DNA of 64,000 bases from Vreelandella olivaria. Lineage in GTDB: Bacteria; Pseudomonadota; Gammaproteobacteria; Pseudomonadales; Halomonadaceae. How positions within the stretch are numbered: the first letter of the stretch is position 1; each line of letters begins with the position of its first letter. Positions 55,618 through 61,107 of the stretch are shown here, piece by piece. The notes below the pieces were generated by a model that worked only from the letters and a program-made list of their open reading frames with translations, ran no database searches and was not told the DNA's origin. The stretch spans positions 1 to 64,000 of the forward strand of contig NZ_JALPZO010000112.1 in the NCBI RefSeq assembly GCF_023507745.1, in the 5' to 3' direction. A program made the translations under genes and the position numbers.

Positions 55618-57204
55618 TTACACGCTGGCTGCACCACCATTGCTACGTGGGTCGTGGGCACTCTCAATCAGCCCATCGGGGTGTCGCACAATGCCCCCTG
55701 CGTGCCCCATGGTGTCGCTAAATGCTTCGGGCAGCACTTCAACATCATGCCCGGCAGTGGCCAGGGCGGTTACCAATGCGTCGTCAAAGCGATCTTCAAG
55801 TTTTAAGTTGGTGCTGGACTCCCCCCATGTTCGCCCCAGTAACCAGCGTGGTGCTGTAATGGCCTGTTGTAGAGGCATACCATGTAGCGCGTAACGGGAA
55901 AACACTGCCGCCTGGGTTTGCGGTTGTCCTTCGCCCCCCATGGTGCCATACACCATGGTGCGCCCATCGTTAAAGGTGGCTAAGGCTGGGTTGAGGGTAT
56001 GGAAGGGCTTGCGGCCTGGAGCCAAACCGCGTAAATCGTCAGGGTTGAGTGAAAAGCTGATACCACGATTTTGCCACAGAACGCCGCTTTCCGGCAGTAC
56101 CACACCACTGCCAAATTCCCAGTAAATGCTTTGGATAAAGCTGACCGAACGCCCTTCGCTGTCTACAGTGCCCATCCAAATGGTGTCGCCAGGTGCTGGA
56201 TTAAAGGGCCAGGGGAGGGCTTGGGCGCTGTTGATCTGAGCGGCTTCAGCGCTAATGCGTTCTTCGTTTAGAAGCCCCTGTAGAGGCACTGGAACGCGAT
56301 TGGGGTCGGTGACATAGCGATCGCGGAGTAAAAATGCACGCTTGGTAGCCTCAATCAGGCCGTGCAGATGGTCAAAGCCATTAGGTTCGGCGGCTTTTAT
56401 GCGCTCGTAGATGGCTAAAATCATGAGTGACGCCACTCCCTGGGTGGGAGCGGGGAGGTTATACAGCGTAGCGTCCTGCAACGATACCTGTAGCGGTGTG
56501 ACCCGCTGGGCGCGATAGGCATGGAAATCATCCAAACGCAGCGGGCTGCCTAATGTTGCTAACTCTTTGGCCATGCCCGTCGCGAGTTCTCCACGGTAGA
56601 AATCATCCAGCCCTGCGGTGGCGAGACGGGTGAGCGTAGCTGCCAGACGTGGTTGATGTAGTCGTTCGCCTTCGCGAGGGACTTGACCATTAATCAGGAG
56701 CGCTTCGCTAAAGCCTGGGCTTTGCAGCAGTCGCTCTAAATGCTTGGCTGTCAGCGTTTCCTGGCTTTGGGAGACCGCTACACCTTGATCCGCATGGCGA
56801 ATGGCATCGGCCAGTAGCGTCGATAGCGGTAACGCTTCACCCCAGCCTGAGGCAACCTTTAGCGCTTCCTGCCAACCACCAATGGTGCCTGCCATGGTAA
56901 GCGCTGCTTTGGGGCCACGCTCAGGGATATGTGTGTCGCCTGCGTAAAAATCGCCGTTAGCCAGCGCTGCCGCAGGGCCGCAGGCATCGATGGCGACGGG
57001 TACTTGACCGGGTTCGTGGATGAGCCAAAATCCATCACCTCCCAATGCATTCATATGGGGATAGACCACCGCGATGGCCGCCGCAGCGGCTACCATCGCT
57101 TCTACCGCATTGCCGCCTTGTTTCAATATATCGCGCCCTGCGCTGGCAGCGAGATGATGCGGGGCAACACAGCTGCCGCCATAGCTACGTTGAGTGTAAA
57201 GCAT
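55618..57204 (-). CDS. Gamma-glutamyltransferase-family hydrolase, possibly oxamate amidohydrolase-like (HpxW type)
   Basis: An N-terminal-nucleophile hydrolase of the GGT family, 528 residues from ATG 57204; TTG at 57240 would add 12 residues and overlap dctM. It has no signal peptide, unlike periplasmic GGTs. The self-cleavage site is DTIWMGTVDSEG: its Thr aligns with the catalytic Thr of GGT, but the following Thr-His of the usual TTH is Ile-Trp. The opening VAPHHLAASAGRDILKQGGNAVEAMVAAAAAIAVVYPH (in the frame) and GGDGFWLI resemble, as far as I recall, the HpxW oxamate amidohydrolase branch. GGEGQPQTQA also fits the family. It follows the TRAP genes, so it probably acts on the imported substrate. 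Confidence 0.75.
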   Translation of the reverse strand: MLYTQRSYGGSCVAPHHLAASAGRDILKQGGNAVEAMVAAAAAIAVVYPHMNALGGDGFWLIHEPGQVPVAIDACGPAAALANGDFYAGDTHIPERGPKAALTMAGTIGGWQEALKVASGWGEALPLSTLLADAIRHADQGVAVSQSQETLTAKHLERLLQSPGFSEALLINGQVPREGERLHQPRLAATLTRLATAGLDDFYRGELATGMAKELATLGSPLRLDDFHAYRAQRVTPLQVSLQDATLYNLPAPTQGVASLMILAIYERIKAAEPNGFDHLHGLIEATKRAFLLRDRYVTDPNRVPVPLQGLLNEERISAEAAQINSAQALPWPFNPAPGDTIWMGTVDSEGRSVSFIQSIYWEFGSGVVLPESGVLWQNRGISFSLNPDDLRGLAPGRKPFHTLNPALATFNDGRTMVYGTMGGEGQPQTQAAVFSRYALHGMPLQQAITAPRWLLGRTWGESSTNLKLEDRFDDALVTALATAGHDVEVLPEAFSDTMGHAGGIVRHPDGLIESAHDPRSNGGAASV

Positions 57205-57233
57205 GACTCCAAATCCTTTGTTATTGGTGATGG

Positions 57234-58559
57234 TTACCAACCAATGGCATCAGGCAGCCAAGTGGCAATGCTTGGAAAAATAAATACCAGCGCAACGGCC
57301 AGAAACTGTAGCGCGATAAAGGGAATCGCGCCTTTATAGATATCCAGCGTGGACACTTCTTTCGGGGCAACGCCTTTCAAGAAGAACAGTGACCAGCCAA
57401 ATGGCGGGGTCAGGAACGAGGTTTGTAGTACCAACCCCACCAAAATGCCTAGCCACACCATATCGGTCCCCGTTTGAACAAAAAAGGGCAGAAACAGTGG
57501 CAAGGCAATATAACTAATTTCGATCCACTCCAGGAAAAAACCCAGCACGAACATAAGTAGCAGCATAAAGAGCAGTGCGCCCCATTCGCCCCCAGGTACC
57601 CACTCCAGCATACGGCCTACCAGATGCTCGCCGCCTAATCCACGAAAGGCCAGGCCAAACACCTGAGCGCTGATAAGAATAAAGAACACCATGGCGGAGA
57701 TCACCAGGGTTGCCCTGGCAACATCGCTTAATAGAGCCATTGTTAAGCGACCGGAGCAGGCCACAAATACCAAGGCTCCCAATGCTCCCATGGCGGCGGC
57801 TTCAGTAGGGGCGGCAATGCCACCAATGATGGAGCCAAGCACTGCAAATACCAGCCCTACCGGTGGGCCCACCACGGTGACCACCTTGCGTAATAGCTGC
57901 CCTTTGTTCAGCTGGGCGCGCTCTTCAGCGGGAATAGGTGGCATCAAGTGGGGGGAGAACTGAGCAATGATTAAAATGGCGACAATGTAAATACCCGCCA
58001 ATGCCAAGCCAGGCACCATGGCCGCAGCAAACATGGTGCCTACCGACTCGCCTAAAATTTCTGCGAGCAGGATCAGCACCAGACTGGGTGGAATAATTTG
58101 CCCCAGGGTGCCCGAGGCACAAATCATGCCGGTGGCGAGGGTTTTCGGATAGCCCCTGCGTAGCAGGGTGGGCAGGGTTAACAGGCCAAGGGTTACAATG
58201 GTGGCGCCCACAATGCCCGTGGCGGCACCCAGTAGCACGCCCACAAAAATAATCGCCACCCCCATGCCGCCTGAAAGCCCCCCAAACAAGTGGCCAATCA
58301 CATCAATCAACTCTTCTGCCAGTTTCGACTTCTCAAGCATCACCCCCATAAACACAAACAGGGGGATTGCCATAAAGGTGTAGTTGGTGACCACACCATA
58401 AATACGCGAGGGCAAAAGGTTGAACAGCATCGGGCCAAAGCCCAGGTAGCCAAACACAAAGGCGGTAACGGCAATGCTGATGGCGACGGGAATACCAATC
58501 AAGAGCAGCACAAAAAAGGCAGCGATCATGCCGATCGCAAGCCATTCATTAGGAGACAT
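57234..58559 (-). CDS. TRAP transporter large permease (DctM family)
   Basis: The 441-residue, roughly 12-span membrane subunit of a tripartite ATP-independent periplasmic transporter. Hallmarks are IPLFVFMGVMLEKSKLAEEL, GATGIVGATIVTLGLLTLPTLLRRGYPK and the GQIIPPS motif in the frame. It uses the sodium or proton gradient to take up the solute delivered by the binding protein. It starts three bases after dctQ. Confidence 0.93.
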   Translation of the reverse strand: MSPNEWLAIGMIAAFFVLLLIGIPVAISIAVTAFVFGYLGFGPMLFNLLPSRIYGVVTNYTFMAIPLFVFMGVMLEKSKLAEELIDVIGHLFGGLSGGMGVAIIFVGVLLGAATGIVGATIVTLGLLTLPTLLRRGYPKTLATGMICASGTLGQIIPPSLVLILLAEILGESVGTMFAAAMVPGLALAGIYIVAILIIAQFSPHLMPPIPAEERAQLNKGQLLRKVVTVVGPPVGLVFAVLGSIIGGIAAPTEAAAMGALGALVFVACSGRLTMALLSDVARATLVISAMVFFILISAQVFGLAFRGLGGEHLVGRMLEWVPGGEWGALLFMLLLMFVLGFFLEWIEISYIALPLFLPFFVQTGTDMVWLGILVGLVLQTSFLTPPFGWSLFFLKGVAPKEVSTLDIYKGAIPFIALQFLAVALVFIFPSIATWLPDAIGW

Positions 58560-58562
58560 GCG

Positions 58563-59072
58563 TTATTCACCTCGGCTGGGAAGGGAAAATCCTTGGCGCA
58601 GTGCATGGGCCAGGCCCTGCAGTGCAAGCAACAGAAAACCAAGCGGGATAAGGGATTTAAGTAGCCAGCGAAAAGGCAGGCCGCCAGGGTTGGGGGAGGA
58701 TTCGCCACGAACGAACGATTGTGCAACCCAGGGCAGCGTCAACCATGCGATGTAGAGCCCCATGATGAGTAGCAGTAAACCGCCAAGTACCTCAATGGCA
58801 CGCTGCACATTGACAGGTAAACGCTCATAAAAGACATCGACGCGCACCTGTTCGCCAACGAACAGCAAATATGACATCCCAAATAGTGCAATGGGAGAGA
58901 TCAGGTGCCACTGAAGCTCCTGGAGCCATACGGCGCCAATGCTGAACAGGTAGCGCATTACCACATCGCCTGCCACCAACGCGACGAGCACCACGCAGGT
59001 CCAGGCAGCAATCCAACCAAACAGTCGGACCACTGCCTCGATCCCGTGGACAACACGTTCCACGGTACGCAT
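58563..59072 (-). CDS. TRAP transporter small permease (DctQ family)
   Basis: The 169-residue, four-span small subunit. WLQELQWHLISPIALFGMSYLLFVGEQVRVDVFYERLP (in the frame) contains the diagnostic DctQ block with the RVDVFYERL pattern. It lies one base after dctP and three before dctM, an arrangement typical of a coupled TRAP operon. Confidence 0.9.
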   Translation of the reverse strand: MRTVERVVHGIEAVVRLFGWIAAWTCVVLVALVAGDVVMRYLFSIGAVWLQELQWHLISPIALFGMSYLLFVGEQVRVDVFYERLPVNVQRAIEVLGGLLLLIMGLYIAWLTLPWVAQSFVRGESSPNPGGLPFRWLLKSLIPLGFLLLALQGLAHALRQGFSLPSRGE

Positions 59073-59073
59073 A

Positions 59074-60177
59074 TCACACCCCGATAATGTCGTTTAACCA
59101 GGCGCGCTCACTAGGGCCTGCCCAGCGGTCATGATTGGCTTTGAACGCCATATAGCTGTCGTGTACTTTGCGTACCAGCGGATCGGCCGCTGCTTCGCTG
59201 GAAAGCGTATCCATGGTTGCTTCACGCAGGGCGCTGATCACTGGTTCTGGCAGCATGCTGGCGGTGACACCATGGTTTTCCACCAGGTCAGCCATGGCTT
59301 CACCATTGACGGCTTCTGACCAGGTCAGGCTTTCCAGGCAGGCGGCCATACAGGCGCTTTTTACGATCATTTGCAGGTCTTCGGGTAGATTATCCCAATG
59401 CTGTTTGGAGATCAGTAACTCACCGGTGGTGGCGGGCTCATGCCAGCCGGTGGTGTGGTAGTACTTGGCGGCATTATGTAGCCCCATGCGACGGTCTTGG
59501 TAGGGGCCTACAAACTCGGCAGCATCGATAACACCACGTTCAAGGGCTGGGAAGATCTCACCACCGGGCAGAACGCGGGCATCGACACCCAGGGAGGCGT
59601 AGACCTGTCCAGCCAGTCCAGGAATGCGCATCCGCAATCCATTGAGTTGGCTGATATCCTCAATTGGCTCACGGAACCACCCCGTCATCTGAACGCCCGT
59701 ATTATTAAGTGGCAGGGCGACCAGGCCGTAAGGCTCATACACTTCTTGCCAAAGCTCCAGGCCGCCACCGTGGTAAAGCCATGCCATGTGGCCCATAAAG
59801 CTCATGCCAAAAGGCACTGTGGTGAAGTATTGCGCAGCAAAGGTAGTGCCCGACCAGAAATAGCTGTTCGCGGCATTCATTTCGATAGTGCCGCTTTGTA
59901 CCGCCTCAAACCCCTCAAAGGCAGGGATAAGCTCACCCGCGGAAAAGTGCTGGATGTTGAGACGCCCACCTGACATGGCATTAATTTTCGCAATGACGTC
60001 TGTTGGGCTGCCTGGGCCTTCCACATAAAACGGGGAGCCTGGGCTATAGGCATTGGTCATTCGCCAGTTAAAGCTCTCGGAGCTTTGGGCTTTGGCGATG
60101 CTGGGGGCGCCCAGCACCAGCCCAGCGGTGGAGGAGAGCGCAGCGGTAGTCAGAAACTTGCGGCGAGTAAAGGACAT
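59074..60177 (-). CDS. TRAP substrate-binding protein, TakP-like (keto-acid type), Tat-exported
   Basis: The 367-residue periplasmic binding protein. Residues 1-30 form a twin-arginine signal (TRRKFL) ending APSIAKAQ. The mature part resembles TakP of Rhodobacter, which binds 2-oxoacids such as pyruvate: HFSAGELIPAFEGFEAVQSG, NTGVQMTGWFR, RMRIPGLAGQVY, and GGEIFPALERGVIDAAEFVGPY in the frame with the substrate Arg and Trp-equivalent positions. Substrate is inferred, not proven. It is first in the dctPQM-hydrolase operon, behind a sigma-54-type promoter. Confidence 0.85.
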   Translation of the reverse strand: MSFTRRKFLTTAALSSTAGLVLGAPSIAKAQSSESFNWRMTNAYSPGSPFYVEGPGSPTDVIAKINAMSGGRLNIQHFSAGELIPAFEGFEAVQSGTIEMNAANSYFWSGTTFAAQYFTTVPFGMSFMGHMAWLYHGGGLELWQEVYEPYGLVALPLNNTGVQMTGWFREPIEDISQLNGLRMRIPGLAGQVYASLGVDARVLPGGEIFPALERGVIDAAEFVGPYQDRRMGLHNAAKYYHTTGWHEPATTGELLISKQHWDNLPEDLQMIVKSACMAACLESLTWSEAVNGEAMADLVENHGVTASMLPEPVISALREATMDTLSSEAAADPLVRKVHDSYMAFKANHDRWAGPSERAWLNDIIGV

Positions 60178-60227
60178 GGGAAGACCTCATGGCTAAAGGA
60201 AGGGGAGTAGCGAAAGCACTAATGAGG

Positions 60228-60245
60228 TAGCAAGGGTTATGCCAA
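60228..60245 (-). promoter_or_regulatory. Sigma-54 (RpoN)-type promoter for the TRAP operon
   Basis: On the minus strand TTGGCATAACCCTTGCTA has the obligatory GG and GC with 10 bases between, against the consensus TGGCACG-N4-TTGCW. The predicted start point is about 40 bases before the dctP ATG. Confidence 0.72.
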
Positions 60246-60276: not shown

Positions 60277-60429
60277 AGAGGAGTTGTCGGTTGTAGTAAG
60301 CACCTAGTAAGAGACAGAAAAATAAGCGAGCGCATCAAAATGAAGCATCCTAAATTGGTCAGGCACCTTCTAAGGTCATTTAAGGTATGCAGTTATTTTT
60401 GCGCTAAAAACGTTCCGATATCAGAGCGC

Positions 60430-60486: not shown

Positions 60487-60562
60487 GTCCCATTCGTCTA
60501 GTGGTCCAGGACACCGCCCTTTCACGGCGGGAACAGGGGTTCGAACCCCCTATGGGACGCCA
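60487..60562 (+). tRNA. tRNA-Glu (TTC), copy 1
   Basis: A complete 76-base cloverleaf with encoded CCA. The acceptor arm GTCCCAT pairs with ATGGGAC, the anticodon TTC sits in CCTTTCACG, and the T loop is GGTTCGAACC. Identical to the two later copies. MnmA, encoded in this window, would thiolate its U34. Confidence 0.97.
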
Positions 60563-60585
60563 CTTCATCGTCAGGTAATCGGAAT

Positions 60586-60660
60586 GCGGGAATAGCTCAG
60601 TGGTAGAGCATCGCCTTGCCAAGGCGAGGGTCGGGAGTTCGAATCTCCTTTCCCGCTCCA
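60586..60660 (+). tRNA. tRNA-Gly (GCC), copy 1
   Basis: A complete 75-base tRNA with encoded CCA. The acceptor arm GCGGGAA pairs with TTCCCGC, and the anticodon GCC lies in CTTGCCAAG. Identical to the other two copies. Confidence 0.97.
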
Positions 60661-60667
60661 AAAAAAC

Positions 60668-60743
60668 GTCCCATTCGTCTAGTGGTCCAGGACACCGCCC
60701 TTTCACGGCGGGAACAGGGGTTCGAACCCCCTATGGGACGCCA
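60668..60743 (+). tRNA. tRNA-Glu (TTC), copy 2
   Basis: Identical in sequence to copy 1, 7 bases after tRNA-Gly copy 1 (spacer AAAAAAC). Confidence 0.97.
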
Positions 60744-60769
60744 ATTAGATAGCGAGTATCAGAGTTTAA

Positions 60770-60844
60770 GCGGGAATAGCTCAGTGGTAGAGCATCGCCT
60801 TGCCAAGGCGAGGGTCGGGAGTTCGAATCTCCTTTCCCGCTCCA
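60770..60844 (+). tRNA. tRNA-Gly (GCC), copy 2
   Basis: Identical in sequence to copy 1, 26 bases after tRNA-Glu copy 2. It is directly followed by a 75-base degenerate repeat. Confidence 0.97.
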
Positions 60845-60919
60845 GTTGGTATGCGTGATAGAGCAGATGAGGGTCGTGAGCTGGAGCGCCAGCCCGGTCG
60901 AATCTCCTTTCCCGCTCCA
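60845..60919 (+). repeat. 75-nt tRNA-Gly-tail repeat, unit 1
   Basis: A unit exactly as long as tRNA-Gly, starting GTTGGTATGCGTGATAGAG. Its last 22 bases are identical to the tRNA-Gly 3' end including CCA, but the 5' part cannot form the acceptor arm. It contains a small hairpin GCTGG-AGCG-CCAGC. Confidence 0.85.
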
Positions 60920-60926
60920 AAAAAAC

Positions 60927-61002
60927 GTCCCATTCGTCTAGTGGTCCAGGACACCGCCCTTTCACGGCGGGAACAGGGGTTCGAACCCCCTATGGGACGC
61001 CA
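60927..61002 (+). tRNA. tRNA-Glu (TTC), copy 3
   Basis: Identical to copies 1 and 2; again preceded by the 7-base spacer AAAAAAC, here after repeat unit 1. Confidence 0.97.
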
Positions 61003-61032
61003 TCTCGCTCTTATTCGCACTACTTTTATGTT

Positions 61033-61107
61033 GCGGGAATAGCTCAGTGGTAGAGCATCGCCTTGCCAAGGCGAGGGTCGGGAGTTCGAATCTCCTTTCC
61101 CGCTCCA
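61033..61107 (+). tRNA. tRNA-Gly (GCC), copy 3
   Basis: Identical to copies 1 and 2. Directly followed by two more 75-base-type repeats. Confidence 0.97.

Follow-up and report, generated by a model that had tools for sequence, protein, structure and literature searches.

In a 64-kb stretch of DNA from Vreelandella olivaria, a halophile of the Halomonas type (contig NZ_JALPZO010000112.1, positions 1 to 64,000; hereafter the window), a four-gene unit with the order dctP-dctQ-dctM-hydrolase runs from 60177 to 55618 on the minus strand. The first three genes encode a tripartite ATP-independent periplasmic (TRAP) importer and the fourth an N-terminal nucleophile (Ntn) hydrolase, which together probably serve the uptake and hydrolysis of oxamate, the half-amide of oxalic acid. 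Every part of the operon was found where the original prediction for this locus had placed it, and the four frames match the expected Pfam families (DctP, DctQ, DctM and G_glu_transpept). The features are the following:

59074..60177, minus strand: dctP, TRAP solute-binding protein of the TakP/ketoacid type, 367 residues (Pfam DctP; PDB 4pet, 5cm6, 7ug8, 2hzk)
58563..59072, minus strand: dctQ, TRAP small permease, 169 residues (Pfam DctQ)
57234..58559, minus strand: dctM, TRAP large permease, 441 residues (Pfam DctM, and TIGR00786 above cut-off)
55618..57204, minus strand: hpxW-like Ntn hydrolase, a predicted oxamate amidohydrolase, 528 residues (best match PDB 5hft; trees; active-site columns)
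60229..60244, minus strand: sigma-54 (-24/-12) promoter element TGGCATAACCCTTGCT, the only perfect match in the window
60362..60378, minus strand: degenerate NtrC-like dyad 1, TGACCTTAGAAGGTGCC, 2 mismatches to GCAC-N7-GTGC, at -133 from the sigma-54 element
60331..60347, minus strand: degenerate NtrC-like dyad 2, TGCTTCATTTTGATGCG, 3 mismatches, at -102 from the sigma-54 element

Between dctP and dctQ there is 1 nt, between dctQ and dctM 3 nt, and between the dctM stop and the likely start of the hydrolase 29 nt. This start is most likely the ATG at 57204 (528 residues, with GGAG just 5′) rather than the TTG at 57240. As had been predicted, the N-terminus of the hydrolase (MLYTQRSYGGSCVAPHH), read by eye, contains no signal-peptide-like stretch. 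That of DctP (MSFTRRKFL) is a twin-arginine-like leader. The closest relatives of the operon are Halomonas/Vreelandella loci, with protein identities of 89-90%. In Halomonas olivaria TYRC17 the operon (L041:5024-9678) is broken into several frames, by gene decay or sequencing errors.

The best solved relative of the hydrolase is PDB 5hft, which we take to be the structure of Klebsiella HpxW; its two chains match with E values of 2.3e-103 and 3e-84, and the break between both matches falls at the predicted catalytic Thr. The structure of the K. pneumoniae oxamate amidohydrolase is reportedly the work of Hicks and Ealick in 2016. In the accessible part of PMC5270733, Hicks and Ealick 2016 is the reference given for the oxamate amidohydrolase HpxW. 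The window hydrolase is 57.9% identical to K. pneumoniae HpxW over 97%, and the Klebsiella open reading frame (ORF; L089:12001-13587), recognised from the genes beside it, which encode an AtzE-family amidohydrolase and HpxZ (both above cut-off), also encodes 528 residues and the same predicted catalytic Thr. In a quick maximum-likelihood tree both proteins fall into one clade of 95 of the 111 rows (SH-aLRT support 98), outside which lie E. coli gamma-glutamyltransferase (GGT) and the two other GGT-family proteins of the V. olivaria genome. When PDB 2nlz (‘Cephalosporin acylase’) and one further hydrolase (from genome G256, see below) were added, the HpxW clade comprised 96 rows, again with a support of 98, and excluded 2nlz, which grouped with the protein of L111 and with the own paralogue on C172, to which it is 62% identical (support 99). 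The tree program warns of long branches, mainly in the outer rows, and ten rows had been removed beforehand, six truncated or broken (L010, L012, L033, L041, L042, L074) and four with no usable match. The hydrolase had been predicted to resemble the HpxW branch, and it groups neither with the glutathione-type GGT nor with 2nlz.

The active-site columns lead in the same direction. Sixteen of 21, which were picked from E. coli GGT positions and not from an HpxW-ligand structure, hold the same residue as in K. pneumoniae: T353, Q370, S371, Y373, E375, N391, R392, G393, H414, T415, N417, M434, G435, G436, G438 and Q439, with the predicted catalytic Thr353 counted from the TTG at 57240. At these sixteen the Klebsiella residue is found in the majority of rows of every context group, whereas the remaining C87, W374, I394, S395 and E437 of the window protein are S, H, A, A and D in Klebsiella; columns E375 and N417 set the outer GGT-family group apart. 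In E. coli GGT the gamma-glutamyl group is bound by R114, N411, Q430, D433, S462 and S463, and all six are changed in the hydrolase, to C87, Y373, R392, S395, H414 and T415 respectively. On the GGT equivalog model TIGR00066 the hydrolase scores 328.7, below the cut-off of 357.85, as does K. pneumoniae HpxW (335.8). The protein is thus most likely an HpxW-type hydrolase, predicted from its sequence to convert oxamate to oxalate and ammonium.

How often does this hydrolase travel with a TRAP importer? A genome scan gave 340 hydrolase loci, from which the best 80 were taken, so that the set is tilted to near relatives. Counting TRAP genes as linked when the same strand carried at least two of dctP, dctQ and dctM no more than 4.8 kb upstream, 54 of the best 80 loci carried them, 18 of these together with a TauE/SafE gene; the others showed TauE without TRAP (6/80), an OxlT-like protein of the major facilitator superfamily (MFS; 5/80) or neither (15/80, five with short upstream DNA). 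Of 150 genomes drawn evenly from the phylum, 13 contained a protein at least 50% identical to the hydrolase; its gene lay beside this TRAP in four (the window’s genome, G050, G019 and G091), TauE in two, OxlT in one and none of them in six, although one locus of the last class (L143) has an OxlT-like gene farther off. Searching 299 genomes with DctP produced a sharp split, since the matches in five genomes were 63% identical or more and the one ranking next only 47%. Each of the five also encodes a hydrolase with an identity of 54% or more, and in four the two genes are adjacent; in the fifth, G256, the hydrolase lies elsewhere in the genome and belongs to the HpxW clade.

Several individual loci deserve mention. 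In Rhodobacteraceae SC52 the order dctPQM-hydrolase-tauE is found on a plasmid. On a Thioclava plasmid (L008:4101-8596) an HpxW-clade hydrolase stands directly behind another TRAP, which has a long permease and a different binding protein and may be a second system importing the same compound. A Skermanella mucosa plasmid (L213:8083-9873) bears a TRAP and GGT-family pair, possibly a second, independent pairing, near genes for a CoA ester lyase, a fumarylacetoacetate hydrolase and TauE. In G256 the same TRAP clade (L214:2456-9129) adjoins genes for a DUF1348 protein, a uracil phosphoribosyltransferase and a chemotaxis receptor.

The binding protein had been said to resemble TakP, the solute receptor of the Rhodobacter alpha-keto acid importer TakP/TakQM (PDB 2hzk), and this holds: it matches 4pet, 5cm6, 7ug8 and 2hzk, with an intact cation/keto core. 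According to the part of PMC1839085 available, TakP holds pyruvate and a cation by R177, Y100, Q156, E214, E240 and the carbonyl of W215, the rest of the cavity is rather hydrophobic (Y99, F40, V97, V245, A212, A213, P243, T153 and I47), and polar ligands are predicted to bind poorly; the TakP sequence that we used has T at 213. Four residues of this site, R177, E214, E240 and Q156, are retained (as R184, E221, E247 and Q163) by the window protein and by every complete linked row. In contrast, the hydrophobic cavity is not kept in the window protein, which has Y44, Y51, N104 and G252. Indeed, F40, I47, V97 and Y100 of TakP are replaced by Y44, Y51, N104 and F107 in 56 of the 57 linked rows (56 plus the window), the exception being a fragment without that part, and the V245 position is G, T or S in linked DctPs. 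N104 stands opposite V97 in the multiple alignment with 4pet, 5cm6 and 7ug8, which was the one used; the HMMER alignment gives A103 instead. TYRC17 is left out of these counts.

The full Y44/Y51/N104/F107 set is absent from the 25 DctPs next in similarity (no more than 47% identical) and from the four PDB chains, and no GGT-family gene occurs in the wide flanks of four of those 25 loci (L215-L218). Of 331 compared positions 19 are specific to the clade, among them four of the 15 TakP contact positions (0.86 expected; P 0.007 by a hypergeometric test that takes no account of relatedness). Judged by these residues, the site still looks fit for a 2-oxo-carboxylate with its cation, and three of the four changes are polar, which suits an amide in place of the methyl group of pyruvate.

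The original prediction had also placed the operon under a sigma-54 promoter and nitrogen control. TGGCATAACCCTTGCT is the sole perfect match to TGGCAYN5TTGCW in the 64 kb. Because matches are no more numerous than expected by chance once a mismatch is tolerated (7 against 8.3), the significance of this element comes from its conservation. A site of at least 9/10 was present within 150 nt of dctP in 46 of 57 upstream regions (0.28 expected in shuffles) under less careful start calls, and within 200 nt in 51 of 56, window included, when starts were set from the RRxF leader; TYRC17 and L049, a DctP fragment with no leader, are not in these counts. The Klebsiella hpxW ORF likewise has a sigma-54-like sequence (9/10) 52 nt upstream. 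Among 35 loci that lack this TRAP, a site scoring 9/10 or better was seen within 4 kb in 13, many of these sites at implausible positions, and the signal is therefore weak outside the TRAP operons.

NtrC recognises dyads of the form GCAC-N7-GTGC, as in E. coli glnA (TGCACTAAAATGGTGCA). In the 300 nt preceding the sigma-54 site, 21 of the 51 loci had an exact dyad of this form where 0.2 would be expected; spacers of 3-6 and 8-12 yielded only 0-3 loci each. With one mismatch the count at spacer 7 rose to 39/51 (8.8 expected), but other spacers gave 7-21, with 5, 9 and 12 also raised (18, 21 and 17), so that the argument is carried by the exact matches. Dyads with at most one mismatch peak in the relatives at -134/-135 (14 of the listed positions) and at -103 (8 positions), 31-32 nt apart, a spacing similar to that of the glnA enhancer, and the window dyads stand at places that match both peaks. 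In the Alloalcanivorax tauE-hydrolase operons (L065, L069, L073) a dyad lies 98 nt before a sigma-54-like site, and the V. olivaria genome encodes an NtrC above cut-off. Searching for the dyad and sigma-54 site as one combined pattern gave no match in this genome and one match each in two of the 12 genomes searched; the match that was inspected precedes an ORF resembling, by eye, an amino-acid-binding protein, which lends weak support to the dyad as a nitrogen signal. The promoter prediction thus stands as regards the conserved sigma-54 site and the exact dyads of the relatives, less so for the degenerate dyads of the window itself.

Two further observations concern the region upstream of dctP. 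In Marinobacterium, Pseudomonas, Stutzerimonas, Hydrogenophaga and other gamma- and betaproteobacteria, dctP is preceded by a gene for an Lrp/AsnC-type regulator (for example L043:3159-3605, L045:3357-3851 and L064:3232-3813; the nearest NCBIfam model, ChrS, is far below cut-off), possibly a ligand sensor, with an asparaginase gene just upstream of it in two Stutzerimonas genomes (L045:2335-3327, L046:2336-3328). Because none was seen in the Halomonas loci, this regulator is kept out of the mechanism proposed below. In the window, three tandem tRNA-Glu(TTC)/tRNA-Gly(GCC) pairs occupy 60487-61107 on the opposite strand, just upstream of the operon.

Where would the oxamate come from, and where would the oxalate go? 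The Klebsiella purine pathway makes oxamate inside the cell, and Klebsiella hpxW sits with an AtzE-family (hpxY-like) gene and hpxZ, whereas the window hydrolase is joined to an importer. We rejected an internal purine route as the supply for the window hydrolase since the own genome has no AtzE/HpxY above cut-off, though it has one allantoinase above, and this absence favours oxamate from outside. A source is described in the accessible portions of two papers: in anaerobic E. coli, 19.5 mM allantoin gave 17.7 mM oxamate, which ‘is no longer metabolized’ (PMC11326118), and a sister study measured the fermentation products in culture supernatants (PMC12535856). The allantoin/oxamate branch of E. 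coli (allFGH) and the window module thus share one metabolite, which, as far as that account of PMC11326118 goes, E. coli produces without further use and of which the module would be the consumer.

As for the product, TIGR04259 (oxalate/formate antiporter, cut-off 335) recognises MFS proteins at three hydrolase loci without this TRAP, in Thiomonas (L075, 419), Paraburkholderia (L091, 392) and the survey locus L140 (432), and such OxlT-type antiporters beside the hydrolase suggest oxalate as product. TauE, a family that exports sulfite-like anions, is present in 24 of the 80 loci, and we propose that here it exports oxalate. Degradation of oxalate was discarded for the own genome, in which no oxalyl-CoA decarboxylase was found above cut-off.

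We consider it probable that the operon is a nitrogen-scavenging module, in which oxamate is imported and hydrolysed to ammonia and oxalate under NtrC, and the oxamate interpretation originally put forward is, as a whole, largely supported. When nitrogen is short, phosphorylated NtrC and sigma-54 would turn on dctPQM and the hydrolase gene. In the periplasm, DctP would hold oxamate via a cation on Q163, E221, E247 and the carbonyl of F222, with R184 on the carboxylate, and the amide would be received by N104, Y44 and Y51. DctQM would then import it, probably with sodium, and the cytoplasmic HpxW-type hydrolase, self-cleaved before Thr353, would split it into ammonium and oxalate. The ammonium would be assimilated and the oxalate would leave the cell, in many relatives perhaps by the TauE-type exporter of the operon and at some loci without this TRAP by an OxlT-type antiporter.

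A number of observations weigh against this view. The hydrolase lacks this TRAP nearby in 26 of the 80 loci (five on contigs too short to tell), including two in the Halomonadaceae (L026 and L035), and in nine of the 13 survey genomes. Conversely, the pocket signature is complete in the DctP of G256, next to which no hydrolase is encoded, and in Skermanella the same TRAP clade, with T at the Y51 position of DctP, precedes a distant GGT-family protein only 29% identical to the window hydrolase. Carboxylate binding must also have changed, since F107 replaces TakP Y100, which forms a hydrogen bond with the pyruvate carboxylate according to the part of PMC1839085 available. The window operon contains no oxalate exporter, the nearest TauE of its genome shares only 43% identity with that type of TauE which occurs in the operons, and profile searches of that genome found neither an oxalyl-CoA decarboxylase nor OxlT above cut-off. 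Five of the 56 dctP upstream regions are without a sigma-54 site, and the window’s own dyads have 2 and 3 mismatches. Finally, the counts rest on related sequences and hence are not independent.

The explanation that best survives beside oxamate, possible but rather doubtful, is that the TRAP imports an oxalyl amide larger than oxamate, such as oxalurate, an N-oxalyl amino acid or an oxanilate-like compound, or else some other alpha-keto amide, whose amide bond the hydrolase then cleaves, oxamate being only one member of the class. The more polar pocket, with G, T or S at the TakP V245 position, might accept a bulkier polar group, an amidase-like gene adjoins the hydrolase in seven loci without this TRAP (L074, L076, L077, L085, L139, L141, L142), and in Skermanella this TRAP clade is joined to a different GGT-family enzyme; on the other hand, the active-site columns are close to those of K. 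pneumoniae HpxW and the own genome encodes no HpxY/AtzE above cut-off for oxalurate processing. That the TRAP is an ordinary importer of pyruvate or other 2-oxo acids, next to a hydrolase acting on an unrelated internal substrate, would agree with solved relatives that include a ‘Ketoacid-binding protein’ and TakP, and with the intact core. We find it quite unlikely because of the altered pocket and the regulation: residues suiting aliphatic keto acids, as the accessible text of PMC1839085 presents them, are replaced, the pairing with the hydrolase recurs in 54 of the 80 loci, and a sigma-54 site with NtrC-type dyads fits nitrogen better than carbon. Least credible is a true GGT or cephalosporin-acylase-like enzyme behind an importer of gamma-glutamyl or similar compounds, for which the Pfam membership, a 32% match to 2nlz and the description of B. 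subtilis YwrD as very similar to HpxW (PMC5270733, in the part available) might be cited, but which the trees, with 2nlz, the own paralogues and E. coli GGT all outside the HpxW clade, the sub-threshold TIGR00066 score and the loss of the gamma-glutamyl-binding residues contradict.

With oxamate as the preferred ligand, what is new in this operon? Its parts are of known families, and its novelty, measured against the literature searched, lies in how they are combined and in the ligand predicted. We found no oxamate importer there, in a search that took in few subscription papers, in agreement with the claim that a transporter-amidase pair for oxamate would be new; nor was there a report of hpxW with a TRAP transporter, of a TRAP with a gamma-glutamyltransferase and TauE, of any three of NtrC, sigma-54, a TRAP transporter and a gamma-glutamyltransferase together, or, judging by titles and the start of abstracts, of bacterial oxamate uptake. 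A bolder reading, which in our judgement has an even chance, is that oxamate transport is the dedicated role of this TRAP clade, which would be the first of its kind to be found, and that the module forms one side of a widespread cross-feeding with allantoin fermenters: these release oxamate, and the bacteria with the module keep its nitrogen alone, under NtrC, and give back the carbon as oxalate via TauE- or OxlT-type exporters.

If oxamate is indeed the ligand, an end product of allantoin fermentation would gain an extracellular fate, of which we found no description, and TauE would become a candidate oxalate exporter. Likewise, many proteins that now bear the label gamma-glutamyltransferase or TRAP dicarboxylate transporter would gain a substrate, and the four-residue signature Y44, Y51, N104 and F107 marks the pocket of the TRAP clade concerned.

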